A DNA stretch of 64,000 nucleotides from Microcella alkaliphila (GTDB taxonomy: Bacteria; Actinomycetota; Actinomycetes; Actinomycetales; Microbacteriaceae): positions 372,001 to 436,000 of the forward strand of contig NZ_SGXT01000013.1 of NCBI RefSeq assembly GCF_004216855.1, read 5' to 3'. The translations under genes and the position numbers were made by a program. Each line of letters begins with the position of its first letter. The first letter of the stretch is position 1. The notes under the pieces were generated by a model that saw only the letters and a program-made list of their open reading frames with translations, was not told where the DNA came from and ran no database searches. Positions 10,125 through 15,338 of this stretch are shown here, piece by piece.

Positions 10125-11372
10125 GTGACGGATTACTCGCGGACACCCGACTACACGGCCACCGGCGTGCATCGGGTGGTGTCGCCACTGAGCGACGCGC
10201 CCACCGACATTCGAGCCGAGACGGCTACCTCGGTCGGCCCCGGGCCCAGTTCCCGTTTCGCTCCGGTCACGAGGGGTCGAGAGCCGGGCGCGGGCCGGGT
10301 TCTGCTCGCTGTGTTCGGGTTCACACTGCTCGGGCTCGTCTCGTCATTCGTGGCGGTGTACCTCGTCAGCGGACTCGGCGCGACGAGTGTGATCGTGGCG
10401 GCGCTTCTGGCGCTCGTGCCGCTGGGGATCGTGGTCTGGGGCGTGCGCTGGATTGATCGGTGGGAACCCGAGCCGCGACTCGCCCTGACATTCGCCTTTC
10501 TGTGGGGTGCGGGGGCCAGCGTTTTCATTGCGCTGGCAGTCGATGCCGAGATTCAGTCGATCGTCACCGCTGCCGGTGGCCCCGGGGCGAGCGCGGAGTT
10601 CTTGGGTGCCGCCGTGCAGGCACCGATCGTCGAAGAGGTGGCGAAGGGGCTCGGCGTCTTCATCCTTTTCCTCGCGGTGCGCCGCCGCTTTGACGGACCC
10701 GTTGACGGAATCGTGTACGCAGCCGTCGTCGCCGGCGGGTTCGCGTTTACCGAGAACATCCTTTATTTCGGGGTCGCCTTCGTCGATGGCGGCGCGCTGG
10801 GGCAAACATTCTTCGTCCGCGGACTCATGTCACCGTTCGCCCACGTGATGTTCACCGCAGCGATCGGTCTCGCACTCGGGTTCGCCGCGCGGCGGGGCGC
10901 GCGCTTCCCCGTGTTCGCATTCGTGGTCGGTCTCGTGCCCGCGATCGCTCTGCACGCTTTCTGGAACGGTGCGCTGTTCTTCGTCGGCGACTTCTTCGGC
11001 TACTACCTGCTCGTTCAGGTGCCGATGTTTGTGATCGCGGTAGCAATCGTGTCGTTGCTCCGTAGGCAGGAGGGGCGGATCATTGCCGAGCGGCTCACCG
11101 AGTATGCGGCCGTGGGCTGGTTTCACCCGCAGGAAGTCGCGATGCTCACGAGCACGAGCGGCCGTCGCACGGCCGAGCGGTGGGCCCGCGGTGTGGGCCA
11201 TGGGTCGACGATGCGAGCCTTCATCCGTGACGCGACACTTCTCGCATATGCGCGCCAGCGGATCGTCGGCGGCCGCGATCAGATCGGCGCGCAACTCGAC
11301 GAAGCAGAACTTCTCCGGCGCGTGTCGAGGGCCCGGCACGCGCTCGCCGCGCCCGGAGTGCGCACGCAGTAG
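10125..11372 (+). CDS. PrsW family intramembrane metalloprotease
   Basis: 415-residue polytopic membrane protein. After a 55-residue disordered cytoplasmic tail come about eight hydrophobic helices holding the PrsW/CPBP-type motifs EEVAK (Glu170-Glu171), FTEN (Glu210-Asn211), His240 in FAHVMFT and His277 in ALHAFWNG, which are the presumed metal-binding and catalytic residues. In Bacillus PrsW makes the site-1 cut in anti-sigma RsiW; actinobacterial substrates are not established. The C-terminal 90 residues are soluble and helical. An ECF sigma/anti-sigma pair lies 3 kb downstream, but RskA-type anti-sigmas are not known PrsW substrates. Confidence 0.88.
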   Translation: MTDYSRTPDYTATGVHRVVSPLSDAPTDIRAETATSVGPGPSSRFAPVTRGREPGAGRVLLAVFGFTLLGLVSSFVAVYLVSGLGATSVIVAALLALVPLGIVVWGVRWIDRWEPEPRLALTFAFLWGAGASVFIALAVDAEIQSIVTAAGGPGASAEFLGAAVQAPIVEEVAKGLGVFILFLAVRRRFDGPVDGIVYAAVVAGGFAFTENILYFGVAFVDGGALGQTFFVRGLMSPFAHVMFTAAIGLALGFAARRGARFPVFAFVVGLVPAIALHAFWNGALFFVGDFFGYYLLVQVPMFVIAVAIVSLLRRQEGRIIAERLTEYAAVGWFHPQEVAMLTSTSGRRTAERWARGVGHGSTMRAFIRDATLLAYARQRIVGGRDQIGAQLDEAELLRRVSRARHALAAPGVRTQ

Positions 11373-11629: not shown

Positions 11630-12265
11630 ATGAAAAACTGCACGACGTGTCGTGCTGTCCTCCGTCACGGCGTTCGCTTCTGCACGCAGTGCGGTGCGCC
11701 CTTCTCAGCGCCGCCCAGTGCGCCCCCGCCGTCGGCAGCGGTCCCACCCACCGTTGCGTCACCGCCGGCGTCGTCCGCGCGGGGTCTCGCGCGAGACGCG
11801 GCGCCGGACACGGTCGTTGTGCAACAGCTCGAGCGTGAGGACGTCGCCGAGCCGGTACCCCCCGTCGTCGTGGTCGACGAGCGTGCACCCCGTCAGCGCA
11901 CCTCCCACCGGCTCCCTCCCGAACGCAGTGCTGCAGCAACCTCGGCCTTCGTCACGGGCCTTGCGCCCTTTGCAACGTCGGTGATCGGCAATCTGGTGGC
12001 CTCGCAGGCCGGCGCGCAGCTCGCGGCTGGCGCCGGATCGCTCGCGATGGTGCTCGGGATGCTCACGCTCGTTTTCGTCGTCAACGCCGCGTTACTCACG
12101 GTCTGCGGAATCACCGGTAGCCGGGGCATCCGCGAGACAGCAAACGGTTATACGAGGGGGCGGGGCCTGGCCGTTGCTGGTATCACGCTGGGTTCGATCA
12201 ACCTGGTGCTCTGGCTTGCGGGGCTCGTTGTCAGCATCACCGCAATCGCCCCCTTTTTCGCGTGA
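11630..12265 (+). CDS. Zinc-ribbon and DUF4190 membrane protein
   Basis: 211 residues. The N-terminus is a zinc ribbon with Cys4, Cys7, Cys18 and Cys21 (CxxC-x10-CxxC), then a Pro/Ala-rich linker to about residue 100, then two transmembrane helices of the DUF4190 type. The segment GSRGIRETANGYTRGRGLAVAGITLG matches the family pattern between the two helices. GAGAGGGGG precedes the ATG. Such proteins are common in actinobacteria with unknown function; a membrane-linked sensing or scaffolding role is only a guess. Confidence 0.8.
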   Translation: MKNCTTCRAVLRHGVRFCTQCGAPFSAPPSAPPPSAAVPPTVASPPASSARGLARDAAPDTVVVQQLEREDVAEPVPPVVVVDERAPRQRTSHRLPPERSAAATSAFVTGLAPFATSVIGNLVASQAGAQLAAGAGSLAMVLGMLTLVFVVNAALLTVCGITGSRGIRETANGYTRGRGLAVAGITLGSINLVLWLAGLVVSITAIAPFFA

Positions 12266-12304: not shown

Positions 12305-12329
12305 AAACCCGCATCCAAGGGCCGGGTTT
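12305..12329. terminator. Stem-loop after the zinc-ribbon gene
   Basis: AAACCCG (12305-12311) pairs with CGGGTTT (12323-12329) around an 11-base loop. A second pair, GGTAGC (12269-12274) with GCTACC (12291-12296), lies just upstream. They may end the upstream transcript, although no T run follows. Confidence 0.4.
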
Positions 12330-12364
12330 GCGCGGAAGTGACTAGTGAAGGCAATTCCGCCTGA

Positions 12365-12415: not shown

Positions 12416-13234
12416 ATGCGTAATCGTATTCTCGCGGGCGTGGGCGTTGCCGCTCTCGCCACGGTCGGCCTCGCGGCACCCGCCGTCGCCGACAACCACG
12501 ACACATCAGACATCTACGTCGTCCACGGTATCCCTGGCCTGACGGTCGATGTTTATGTTGACGGTGAGCGTCTGCTTCAGAACTTCGAGCCCCGCGACGT
12601 GGCGGGTCCGGTTGAGTTGCCCGCCGGCGACTACCAGATCCAGGTCGTCGCTGCAGGCGAGACCGACCTGAGCGCAGCGGCGATCGACGAGGTCGAGACG
12701 GTGCCTGCCGCCGGCCTGAGCATTTCGATTGTGGCCCACTTGGACGCGGACGGAACGCCCGTTCTGACTCCGTTCGTGAACGACACGTCAGAGATCGCGG
12801 AAGGCGAGGGCCGCTTGAGCGTCCGTCACACGGCTGCTGCTCCTGCCGTTGACGTTTTCCTGGATGACGCCTTGACTGACTTCCGGGGTGTGGAGAACGG
12901 TGGCGACGGCGATGTCGACGTGCCTGTGGGAACTTACTCGGCGTTCGTTGCCGCTGCGGGCTCGGACGAGCCTGCGATTGGTCCGGCGGACGTGGAGATT
13001 CGCAACGGCGTGAACACGATCGTGTACGCGGTGGGCGACCTCTCCGCTGACCCGTCGACGGCCACTTTCTACATTCAGACCATTGGTGAGCCGGCGGGCT
13101 CGCCTGCCGGTGGCGCTGGATTGGTCGCCGAGGGCGCCAACTCTGGGCTTATTGGTGGCGCAGCGGCCCTTCTCATCGCTCTTCTGGCTGGCGCGGGTAT
13201 CATCGCCCGTCGCGCAGTCGTTGCGAGCAAGTAA
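12416..13234 (+). CDS. Secreted/cell-surface DUF4397 domain protein
   Basis: 272 residues. Signal peptide at 1-25 ending AVADN, then two DUF4397 beta-rich repeats, the first opening DIYVVHGIPGLTVDVYVDGE and the second RLSVRHTAAAPAVDVFLDD. A Gly-rich spacer leads to a C-terminal membrane helix (about 245-262) and a short basic tail, ARRAVVASK. This is the layout of a sorted surface protein, but there is no LPxTG; LVAEG at 236-240 is the only pentapeptide with similar spacing. Very strong ribosome-binding site (AGGAGGAG). The sortase-like gene starts 22 bases downstream, so it is the likely partner. Confidence 0.85.
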   Translation: MRNRILAGVGVAALATVGLAAPAVADNHDTSDIYVVHGIPGLTVDVYVDGERLLQNFEPRDVAGPVELPAGDYQIQVVAAGETDLSAAAIDEVETVPAAGLSISIVAHLDADGTPVLTPFVNDTSEIAEGEGRLSVRHTAAAPAVDVFLDDALTDFRGVENGGDGDVDVPVGTYSAFVAAAGSDEPAIGPADVEIRNGVNTIVYAVGDLSADPSTATFYIQTIGEPAGSPAGGAGLVAEGANSGLIGGAAALLIALLAGAGIIARRAVVASK

Positions 13235-13256: not shown

Positions 13257-13916
13257 TTGAGCAAGAGACTGGTGGCCACCGCTTTGGCGGCCACCAGTCT
13301 CTTGCTGCTTGGCGCGTGTGCGTCAGCCGATGCCAACGAGACGGCCGCGGCCGTGATCGAGGACGCCGAGTCGCACGTCGAGCAGGCAGAGGTGGGTGCC
13401 GATCGTCAGAGTCTGGGCATTTCGCCGATCGATATTCCCATCGCTCGAGACGTCGACAGTGTGCTCGCTCTGGCACCGACGCGGGTGGTCTTCCCCTCCC
13501 AGGGGATCGACATGGAGGTCATCGACGTGGGGGTTGACTCGGACAACCTGCTGATCATCCCCGAGAGCATCTACACCGCGGGCTGGTATCGCGAGGGTTC
13601 CGCGCCCGCGAGCGACCGTGGTGCTACCGTCATTTCCGCTCACGTCGACATGCCGATTCAAGGCGTCGGGCCTTTTGCTGCTCTCAGAGATGCGGAGATC
13701 GGGGCCGAAGTTACCGTGCGTGACGCGGCCGGAGAATCGCACGTGTACCGCGTTATCAGCGTTGAGAGGATCCCAAAAGCTGAAGTGCCGGTTGACAGGG
13801 TGTTCACGAGGTCGGGGCAGCCCCACCTCGTGCTGATCACCTGCGGGGGAAGTTTCGACGTCAACGCCCAGTCATACTCAGACAACTACATAGTCACTGC
13901 GGAAAAGGTGTCGTGA
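13257..13916 (+). CDS. Class F-like sortase lipoprotein lacking the usual catalytic Arg
   Basis: 219 residues from TTG 13257. The signal peptide has a lipobox LLGAC with Cys21, so the enzyme is probably lipid-anchored. The sortase domain carries His129 in ISAHVDMP and Cys196 in LVLITCGGSFD, as in class F sortases beside DUF4397 proteins. The conserved Arg expected about a dozen residues after the Cys is absent: no Arg occurs between Cys196 and the C-terminus, where the sequence runs SYSDNYIVTAEKVS. The first codons form an 18-bp perfect inverted repeat. Activity is therefore uncertain. The stop overlaps a GTG of the downstream sigma-factor frame. Confidence 0.82.
   Translation: MSKRLVATALAATSLLLLGACASADANETAAAVIEDAESHVEQAEVGADRQSLGISPIDIPIARDVDSVLALAPTRVVFPSQGIDMEVIDVGVDSDNLLIIPESIYTAGWYREGSAPASDRGATVISAHVDMPIQGVGPFAALRDAEIGAEVTVRDAAGESHVYRVISVERIPKAEVPVDRVFTRSGQPHLVLITCGGSFDVNAQSYSDNYIVTAEKVS
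13260..13306 (+). repeat. 18-bp perfect inverted repeat in the sortase signal-peptide codons
   Basis: AGCAAGAGACTGGTGGCC (13260-13277) is exactly repeated in inverse orientation at 13289-13306 around an 11-base loop. It begins 25 bases after the DUF4397 stop and one codon inside the sortase frame. It could act as an intercistronic attenuator or RNA-stability hairpin; there is no T run after it. Confidence 0.75.
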
Positions 13917-13996
13917 CGGGTTCACCCGCTAGCATGACCGCGACCGGCGGGGCATACCGTCCCGTGCATCCGGCACCGAAGGAGACCCGCCCGCTC

Positions 13997-14557
13997 GTGA
14001 CGACCGCAATCGACGACGCAACCGATATCGGCCGGCGCCTCAGCGCAGGCGATGAGCGAGCGCTCGCCGATGCGTACCGCGCGTGGTCATCCCTGGTCTA
14101 CTCGCTGGCGCTGCGGTCGCTCGGCGACGCATCCGATGCGGAAGACGTCACCCAGAAGGTGTTCGTCAGTGCATGGCAGGGGCGCGAGAAGTACGACCCC
14201 GAGCGGGCCGCAGTGCCCGCGTGGCTCGTTGGCATCACCCGCAACACGATCGCCGACACCCATGCTGCCCGGGCGCGAGAGCGGGCGATCGCCGATCAGG
14301 TGAGTGCCGTCTCCCTCGATGATCCGTACCCGGCCGCGGAGGCGGGCCTCGCCGAGCGACTGCTGATCGCCGACGAGTTGGCGAAACTTGAGCCCGAACC
14401 TCAGGCCGTCGTGAGGCTTGCCTTCTTCGACGACCTGACCCACACGCAGATCGCCGAGCGGCTCAACATGCCGATCGGCACCGTCAAATCCCATATCAAG
14501 AGAAGCCTGACCCGGCTACGCAGCCGATTGGAGGTGAGTCATGGAGCAGCACTGTGA
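13997..14557 (+). CDS. ECF-type RNA polymerase sigma factor
   Basis: 186 residues from GTG 13997, preceded by GAAGGAG. Region 2 includes YSLALRSLGDASDAEDVTQKVFVSAW (core binding and -10 recognition) and region 4 includes LTHTQIAERLNMPIGTVKSHIKRSLTRLR (-35 recognition helix-turn-helix). Most similar in layout to SigK/SigL-type group factors paired with RskA. A longer frame from GTG 13913, overlapping the sortase stop as GTGA, adds 28 residues with no sigma similarity and may hold an internal promoter. The anti-sigma gene overlaps its end by 17 bases. Confidence 0.87.
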   Translation: MTTAIDDATDIGRRLSAGDERALADAYRAWSSLVYSLALRSLGDASDAEDVTQKVFVSAWQGREKYDPERAAVPAWLVGITRNTIADTHAARARERAIADQVSAVSLDDPYPAAEAGLAERLLIADELAKLEPEPQAVVRLAFFDDLTHTQIAERLNMPIGTVKSHIKRSLTRLRSRLEVSHGAAL

Positions 14558-15338
14558 CACCGGCGCGCTCGCCCTCGGAGCACTCGGCGAAGCGCTCGAG
14601 GCCGACGCCGATGCCCACCTGCGGGCATGCGGACGCTGCCAGCATGAGCTCGCCCGCATGGCTGCCACCGTCTCTGTTGCGCGGTCGACGCTCGGCGAGT
14701 CCGAACTGCACCGGCCCCCTGCGCACGTCTGGCAGAACGTCCACCGCCAGGTCGGGTTTGGCGACGCGCTGCGCAGCGACCCCCTGGGAACGCCAGCGGC
14801 TGACGCGAAGCCGCCGATCGAGGCGCCTTCCGTGGCCAGCGACGCCACGGTGGCGCCCGCGCCGGTCGCCTCGCTCCGTGACGCCCGCGAACGCCGCGGG
14901 CTCCGTCACATCGTGGTGCCGCTCACTGCCGCGGCTGCTGCGGCGGCGCTGATCGCCGGTGTCACCCTCGGCTGGCAGGCGCTGACGCCGCGTGACACCG
15001 GAACGATCGTGGCCTCAGCCAGCTTGGATGCCCTCCCCGCCTGGCAGGGCGCGGCCGGGTCCGCGGAGATCATCGAGCATACGAACGGTGAGCGAGTGGT
15101 TCGCATAGCCCTCGACGCCCCACCCGTGAGCGGGGCGGTGCAGGAAGTCTGGCTTCTCACGCCCGAGGTCGACGGTCTCATCAGCCTCGGCCTGCTCGGT
15201 GACGCGCGCGGCGAGTTCGTCATTCCCGCCGAGGTCGATCTCGACCGCTACTCGGTGGTCGACATCAGCGCTGAGCCGCTCGACGGCGACCCGTCGCACT
15301 CGGGCGACTCGATCGTGCGCGGCACGCTCGAGTCCTGA
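14541..15338 (+). CDS. RskA-type anti-sigma factor
   Basis: 265 residues. The cytoplasmic N-terminus has a zinc-associated anti-sigma motif, His26-x3-Cys30-x2-Cys33 (HLRACGRC), which would hold the sigma factor inactive. A Pro/Ala-rich linker leads to one membrane helix at about 128-150 and an extracytoplasmic RskA domain (VQEVWLLTPEVDGLISLGLL ... DISAEPLDGDPSHSGDSIVRG). In Mycobacterium SigK-RskA controls surface antigens, released by regulated intramembrane proteolysis. Here the DUF4397 and sortase-like genes are the obvious candidate regulon. Confidence 0.9.
   Translation: MEQHCDTGALALGALGEALEADADAHLRACGRCQHELARMAATVSVARSTLGESELHRPPAHVWQNVHRQVGFGDALRSDPLGTPAADAKPPIEAPSVASDATVAPAPVASLRDARERRGLRHIVVPLTAAAAAAALIAGVTLGWQALTPRDTGTIVASASLDALPAWQGAAGSAEIIEHTNGERVVRIALDAPPVSGAVQEVWLLTPEVDGLISLGLLGDARGEFVIPAEVDLDRYSVVDISAEPLDGDPSHSGDSIVRGTLES

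Follow-up and report, generated by a model that had tools for sequence, protein, structure and literature searches.

In the available text of a 2026 paper, His-Cys-Arg is ascribed to all sortases of every class, and the arginine is given as required in F. alocis SrtA on the basis of R200A (PMC13257024). Arg216 of S. pyogenes SrtA is likewise described as required in the accessible portion of another paper, in which the residue is argued mainly to bind or position the substrate (PMC9520033). The sortase gene at positions 13257-13916 (+) of the Microcella alkaliphila DNA analysed here, a stretch of 64,000 nucleotides referred to as the window, encodes a protein with no arginine after its cysteine. 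This raises the question of whether such an enzyme would be active, on which substrate it would act, and which residue stands where the arginine should be. The gene lies in a cassette with all genes on the + strand, in the order DUF4397 protein, sortase, ECF sigma factor, RskA-like anti-sigma factor. We infer, with somewhat better than even confidence, that the product is an active sortase dedicated to the upstream DUF4397 protein, which recognises an altered signal and lacks the catalytic arginine.

An engineered S. aureus SrtA carrying R197S (SrtA-beta) is active on LMVGG, according to the accessible parts of two papers (PMC9126251, PMC9520033), and by analogy may serve as a precedent for a sortase working without the arginine. 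SrtA-beta shares with the window protein an altered signal and the lack of arginine at the site, but it is a laboratory product with many other mutations, whereas the branch described here is natural and clade-wide. There seems to be a widespread actinobacterial branch of sortases without the arginine held to be necessary, usually adjoining one surface-protein gene. Such a branch, having a clear candidate partner, would allow a direct test of whether the arginine is catalytic or positions the substrate. The enzyme is also a candidate ligase for a new signal, and a function is suggested for the adjoining sigma/anti-sigma pair and some of the DUF4397 proteins. A literature search by titles, starts of abstracts and passages, mostly outside subscription papers, found no report joining DUF4397 and sortase, none of a sortase with a missing arginine and none of the cassette.

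A class-F-like sortase of two types

The gene has a TTG start and encodes 219 amino acids, with arginine at positions 4, 50, 64, 76, 112, 121, 144, 155, 165, 171, 181 and 185. As described in the first-pass annotation, the protein is sortase-like, with His129 (13641-13643), Cys196 in LITCGG (13842-13844) and no arginine in the 23 residues after it; the last arginine of the translation, at 185, lies before the cysteine. The PF04203 match (2.8e-17, 63.1 bits) is above the gathering score of 26.6. The match to NF033748 (class F sortase E; 1.5e-31) scores 109.1 bits, under the cut-off of 166, and all 30 members of the sortase alignment (A1) match this family, with E up to 0.001. The predicted structure (pLDDT 89.0, pTM 0.85) has the sortase fold, and all 50 entries listed in the VIA-align fold comparison are sortases (Z 14.2-17.4), among them sortase C1 3re9 (Z 17.4, rmsd 2.6 over 131 residues). 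The barrel (Z about 16 to S. pyogenes SrtA) and the Cys-His pair are shared with class A SrtA of S. pyogenes and S. aureus, which differs in its arginine at the start of beta8 and its LPxTG signal. Class A SrtA is anchored by a membrane helix.

A frameshift error towards the 3' end had been raised as a possible cause of the missing arginine. There is no sign of one: a 98 % identical copy from the same genus (G014) shares the frame at the end, and the C-terminal DNYIVTA is found in 18 of the 30 closest matches, the window sortase included, with near variants such as DNVIVTA in the rest. The Microcella putealis sortase is 61 % identical to the window protein.

The related domains were typed by the column four residues before the cysteine (Cys-4), the Arg-less type having no arginine there and the other type having one; in the window protein this residue is Val192 (13830-13832). 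The set comprised 180 domains (125 Arg-less and 55 with the Cys-4 arginine), or 114 and 55 when only distinct domains are counted. When 99 related genomes were searched with the window sortase, 71 matches were found in 50 genomes, and 70 of these were typed, 45 without the Cys-4 arginine and 25 with it. This arginine is absent from all 30 closest relatives (L003-L032) and present in 30 out of 30 NF033748 loci. These are the best matches, one per genome for 30 genomes, from a phylum sample of 396 genomes in which many weaker matches are untyped. In a quick unrooted tree of 100 rows, from which the Cys-4 column had been removed, two changes between the types were required; the Arg-less type as a single clade was not rejected (p-AU 0.743). 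A further 80 named loci, from Cellulomonas, Microbacterium, Demequina, Sanguibacter, Subtercola, Klenkia, Geodermatophilus and others, indicate range and not frequency, because the search patterns favoured the Arg-less type. A record labelled Planococcus sp. APC 4015 (L098) has the actinobacterial cassette and is probably mislabelled.

Class F sortases of the Cys-4-Arg type share with the window protein the fold, for the most part the CGG that includes the cysteine and a Y-x-(D/G)-N segment, and asparagine at the probable site of the SrtA arginine. They differ in the Cys-4 arginine itself, in the tails of their DUF4397 partners and in having no sigma/anti-sigma pair. The window protein is also a predicted lipoprotein, as annotated earlier, with a lipobox (LLGAC) at Cys21 (13317-13319) of its signal peptide, assigned by sequence pattern; with duplicates counted, the same heuristic assigns one to 96 of the 125 Arg-less-type domains and to 14 of the 55 with the Cys-4 arginine. 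A search for a solved class F structure found nothing close to either profile; 4d70 (1.2e-6) and 7s54 (1.4e-4) ranked highest. PDB 5uus, which stands for class F in the accessible text of two papers, is C. diphtheriae SrtF by its title; it has the usual arginine in NAERMIVHA, and matches the class F profile weakly.

A PF04203 search of the host genome found one further sortase, of the class E type (L001; C4:192329-192817), which shares the sortase fold, His and Cys with the window protein and differs in its sequence, SCNPRFSAAERIIAYA, and in having the arginine in the usual place. This arginine is present in 25 out of 25 class E sequences examined, L001 included, and a class E sortase is present in 53 of the 60 genomes searched.

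The site of the arginine

The conservation of the Arg-less type suggests a functional enzyme. In its 114 distinct domains Cys, His, Trp110 and Gly198 are all invariant (114 out of 114), followed by Asn210 (113), Tyr207 and Thr195 (112 each) and Lys174 (111; 13776-13778). In the other type Cys and His are likewise invariant (55 out of 55), Lys174 is present in 42 out of 55 and Asn210 in all 55, so that all but one (168) of the 169 distinct class-F-like domains have this asparagine.

In the first-pass annotation Y-R-D-N was taken as the usual segment, which made Ser208 (13878-13880) the site of the lost arginine, and serine there was proposed as a possible clade feature. Neither idea survived alignment. 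Arginine occurs at position 208 in just 11 of the 114 distinct Arg-less-type and 12 of the 55 other domains, and ten residues (E, A, T, S, L, R, D, Q, V, K) occur there in the Arg-less type; Ser208 was ruled out because the column is variable. The 23 residues after the cysteine are without any arginine in 18 of 114 Arg-less-type and 16 of 55 other domains. Judged from the aligned sequences, the distinguishing mark of the Arg-less branch is the absence also of the Cys-4 arginine.

The site that best matches the SrtA arginine is probably Asn210 (13884-13886). A profile of 30 class-F-like domains aligns without gaps to 7s54, pairing Y-x-x-N-(V)-I-V-x-A with W-E-K-R-I-I-V-H-A, and the limits of the modelled strands (beta7, residues 190-201; beta8, residues 206-217) agree with this register. 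When 25 class E sequences were aligned by profile, the alignments ended before beta8 or had a gap there and so did not fix the register; we therefore infer the match from the one ungapped alignment together with the strand register. In the window protein the aligned site near the start of beta8 is thus occupied by asparagine. The Cys-4-Arg type (L033-L062, L152, L153 and others) also has asparagine at the usual site, and its arginine may have moved from beta8 to beta7.

The DUF4397 partner and the probable activity of the sortase

The presumed substrate is a DUF4397 surface protein encoded at 12416-13234 (+; PF14344, 2e-24 in two stretches), which has two beta-rich domains, a linker and a C-terminal helix. 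In its model (pLDDT 81.9) strands extend to residue 223, followed by the linker and helix at low confidence. The closest structure is the PepT2 extracellular domain (Z 15.6, rmsd 3.1 over 174), with partial likeness to AlgF (Z about 10); as far as the model goes, this is a shared fold and not a shared function. The C-terminal helix is hydrophobic, with Arg-Arg near its end (13160-13228, +; model helix 222-244, equal to protein residues 249-271, pLDDT mostly below 50).

The partner had been said to lack LPxTG, and neither LPxTG nor LAxTG was found before the membrane helix of the window DUF4397 protein; the linker there has the putative sorting motif PAGGAGL (13103-13123, +). An alignment of 30 partners of Arg-less-type sortases has Gly232 and Gly235 in every one (30 out of 30), Leu236 in 29 and Pro230 in 27. 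The consensus ahead of the predicted membrane helix is mostly V-P-A-G-(S/T/E)-A-G-L, in which G-x-x-G takes the place of LPxTG. An altered signal, as first suggested, is therefore supported in that it is not LPxTG, but LVAEG as this signal was dropped, since the most conserved part is PxGxxGL, lying just ahead of LVAEG and overlapping it. G-x-x-G is absent from 5 of 109 partners in the wider Arg-less set, the count of 104 out of 109 presupposing the pattern. In the window partner a motif, a hydrophobic helix and basic residues thus follow one another as in a sorting signal, the helix being modelled at low confidence.

A DUF4397 gene is upstream of 44 of the 45 Arg-less-type matches; the one without it lies some 200 bases from the end of a contig. 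The pairing is not exclusive, because 9 of the 25 Cys-4-Arg sortases in the related genomes also have DUF4397 within 2.5 kb upstream, by PF14344 positions; the idea that it occurs solely beside the Arg-less type was dropped on this account. In the partners of the Cys-4-Arg type a TGxG block is present in all eight examined of the nine (for example, AATGGGG and VNTGGGA), and that at L169 has no clear helix past the block in the frame examined. Six DUF4397 genes have no typed sortase within 2.5 kb, and five of them were examined (L184-L188). Those at L185, L186 and L187 have neither motif nor helix at the end and no adjacent sortase of their own; L185 is near a contig end and L187 precedes a second, tailed DUF4397 gene. 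At L186, relatives of the window sigma (2.1e-60) and anti-sigma (2.2e-9) factors are present and no sortase domain was found in 2.7 kb, tail and sortase thus being absent together. L184 and L188 keep the tail, and their loci are cut by contig ends.

It is proposed that the sortase would cleave a single substrate, the DUF4397 protein encoded upstream, at PxGxxGL rather than LPxTG, and that the cleaved protein would then be attached to the cell envelope. The barrel would be that of an ordinary sortase, with Cys196 and His129 as the catalytic residues. With the arginine that holds the substrate backbone elsewhere absent, and the conserved Asn210 probably at its site, the substrate may be held via Asn210, Lys174 or backbone contacts that fit the glycine-rich signal.

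Judging by conservation, it is unlikely that this is an ordinary Cys-His-Arg sortase whose site is occupied by an arginine from elsewhere, be it Arg112, Arg144 or, before beta7, Arg185. Arginine is common in these columns of the 114 Arg-less-type domains, with Arg185 the highest (83), Arg112 in 80 and Arg144 in 69; Arg165, which like Arg185 had been named in the first-pass annotation as a candidate for the site, is present in 48. The Cys-4 arginine of the sister type implies that its position may shift within the class. However, no arginine column is invariant, neither Arg112 nor Arg185 is present in 23 domains and in four domains all five of the commonest columns are without arginine, whereas the other residues thought essential are near-invariant. 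The chances are also poor, for a different reason, that the protein is a sortase-fold Cys-His protease or hydrolase and not a transpeptidase, releasing or processing the DUF4397 protein and perhaps signalling to the anti-sigma factor. Loss of a substrate-binding arginine, linkage to the sigma/anti-sigma genes and the predicted lipoprotein anchoring would all suit such an enzyme, but the DUF4397 tail is built like a sorting signal, arginine residues included, and the DUF4397 partners of the Cys-4-Arg type have a comparable tail with a different motif.

Inactivity, which had been put forward earlier, would explain the absence of a supposedly indispensable arginine if the protein were a pseudo-sortase retained for a binding or structural function. 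This is very improbable, because Cys, His and Asn210 are conserved over the 114 sequences, as is Thr195 in nearly all of them, and the tail motif of the partner is conserved as well.

Expression of the cassette

The ECF sigma factor gene (13913-14557, +; PF04542 1.9e-18, PF08281 1.6e-13), the start codon of which is uncertain, overlaps the sortase stop codon and is followed by that for the RskA-like anti-sigma factor (14541-15338, +; PF10099 8.4e-14). Relatives of both are downstream on the same strand of 101 of the 114 distinct Arg-less-type domains, and none of the 55 others has either. Within the available stretch, three of the remaining Arg-less-type domains have sigma only (one in a short stretch) and ten have neither; L028 and L029 have sigma only, and the sequences of L026 and L116 end 441 bases downstream. 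SigK-RskA systems share the ECF sigma factor adjoining an RskA-like anti-sigma factor and differ in that the word sortase does not occur in the available text of PMC7509140.

An ECF-type promoter element, GCATCC-N17-GGAAGT, is present upstream of the DUF4397 gene (12311-12339, +). Of 106 distinct upstream stretches of the Arg-less type, 69 match the pattern GCATCC-N(13-20)-NGAAG[TA] and 37 do not; the spacer is 17 bases long in 68 of the 69. Shuffling of the stretches in two-base blocks gave 0 out of 106 in 19 rounds and 1 in one round. The aligned form is GCATCC-N17-(G/A)GAAG(T/A)-like. At up to one mismatch the window has a single match to the element where about 2.3 would be expected by chance, and the evidence for the promoter is therefore its conservation. 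Further targets in the genome were sought, and the seven matches on both strands compare with five in the reversed control, so no wider regulon is claimed. A promoter match at L190 has no clearly related gene adjoining. It is proposed that the sigma/anti-sigma pair of the cassette would drive the promoter before DUF4397.

The signal-peptide codons of the sortase contain a long RNA hairpin (13260-13306, +), with 21-nt arms that are 95 % complementary, 5 nt between them and a folding z of -5.91. Of 109 Arg-less-type loci, 86 have a stem of at least 14 pairs within 150 bases past the DUF4397 stop codon, against 18 when the best of six shuffles is taken; for the other type the same test, on a differently placed stretch, gave 13 out of 55 against 19 out of 55 when shuffled. 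None of 200 synonymous recodings, made with the codon use of four window genes, matched the window stem, and this was the case in 15 of the 18 loci tested, the window included. With a cruder choice of frame, the stem was beyond all 40 recodings in 44 of 114 sortases of the Arg-less type, in 9 of the 55 others and in 1 of 110 stretches encoding DUF4397 signal peptides, and is thus far commoner at the start of the sortase than at that of DUF4397. Because synonymous recodings mostly fall short of the observed stem, it is probably selected at the RNA or DNA level. Across species the hairpin has mostly 14-24 pairs, is inside or beside the sortase signal-peptide codons, and differs in sequence. It was rejected as a terminator, as the pattern search called none there, and as a known RNA, all matches being far under the thresholds of their families. 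The hairpin may hold the level of the enzyme under that of its substrate.

Returning to the active, dedicated sortase favoured here, a more specific proposal can be made only tentatively and is open to considerable doubt. The branch may be a natural, clade-wide sortase that uses Cys-His and a conserved Asn instead of Cys-His-Arg (papain-like in its residue set only) and has co-evolved with a glycine-rich signal. Together with the substrate and the ECF sigma/anti-sigma pair, it would then form a self-contained surface-coating regulon, with the hairpin in the signal-peptide codons as dosage control.

Upstream of the cassette, the window also encodes a zinc-ribbon/DUF4190-like protein (11630-12265), relatives of which are found only in the closest, Microcella-like loci among those displayed, and a PrsW-family membrane protease (10125-11372; PF13367, 3.1e-48).
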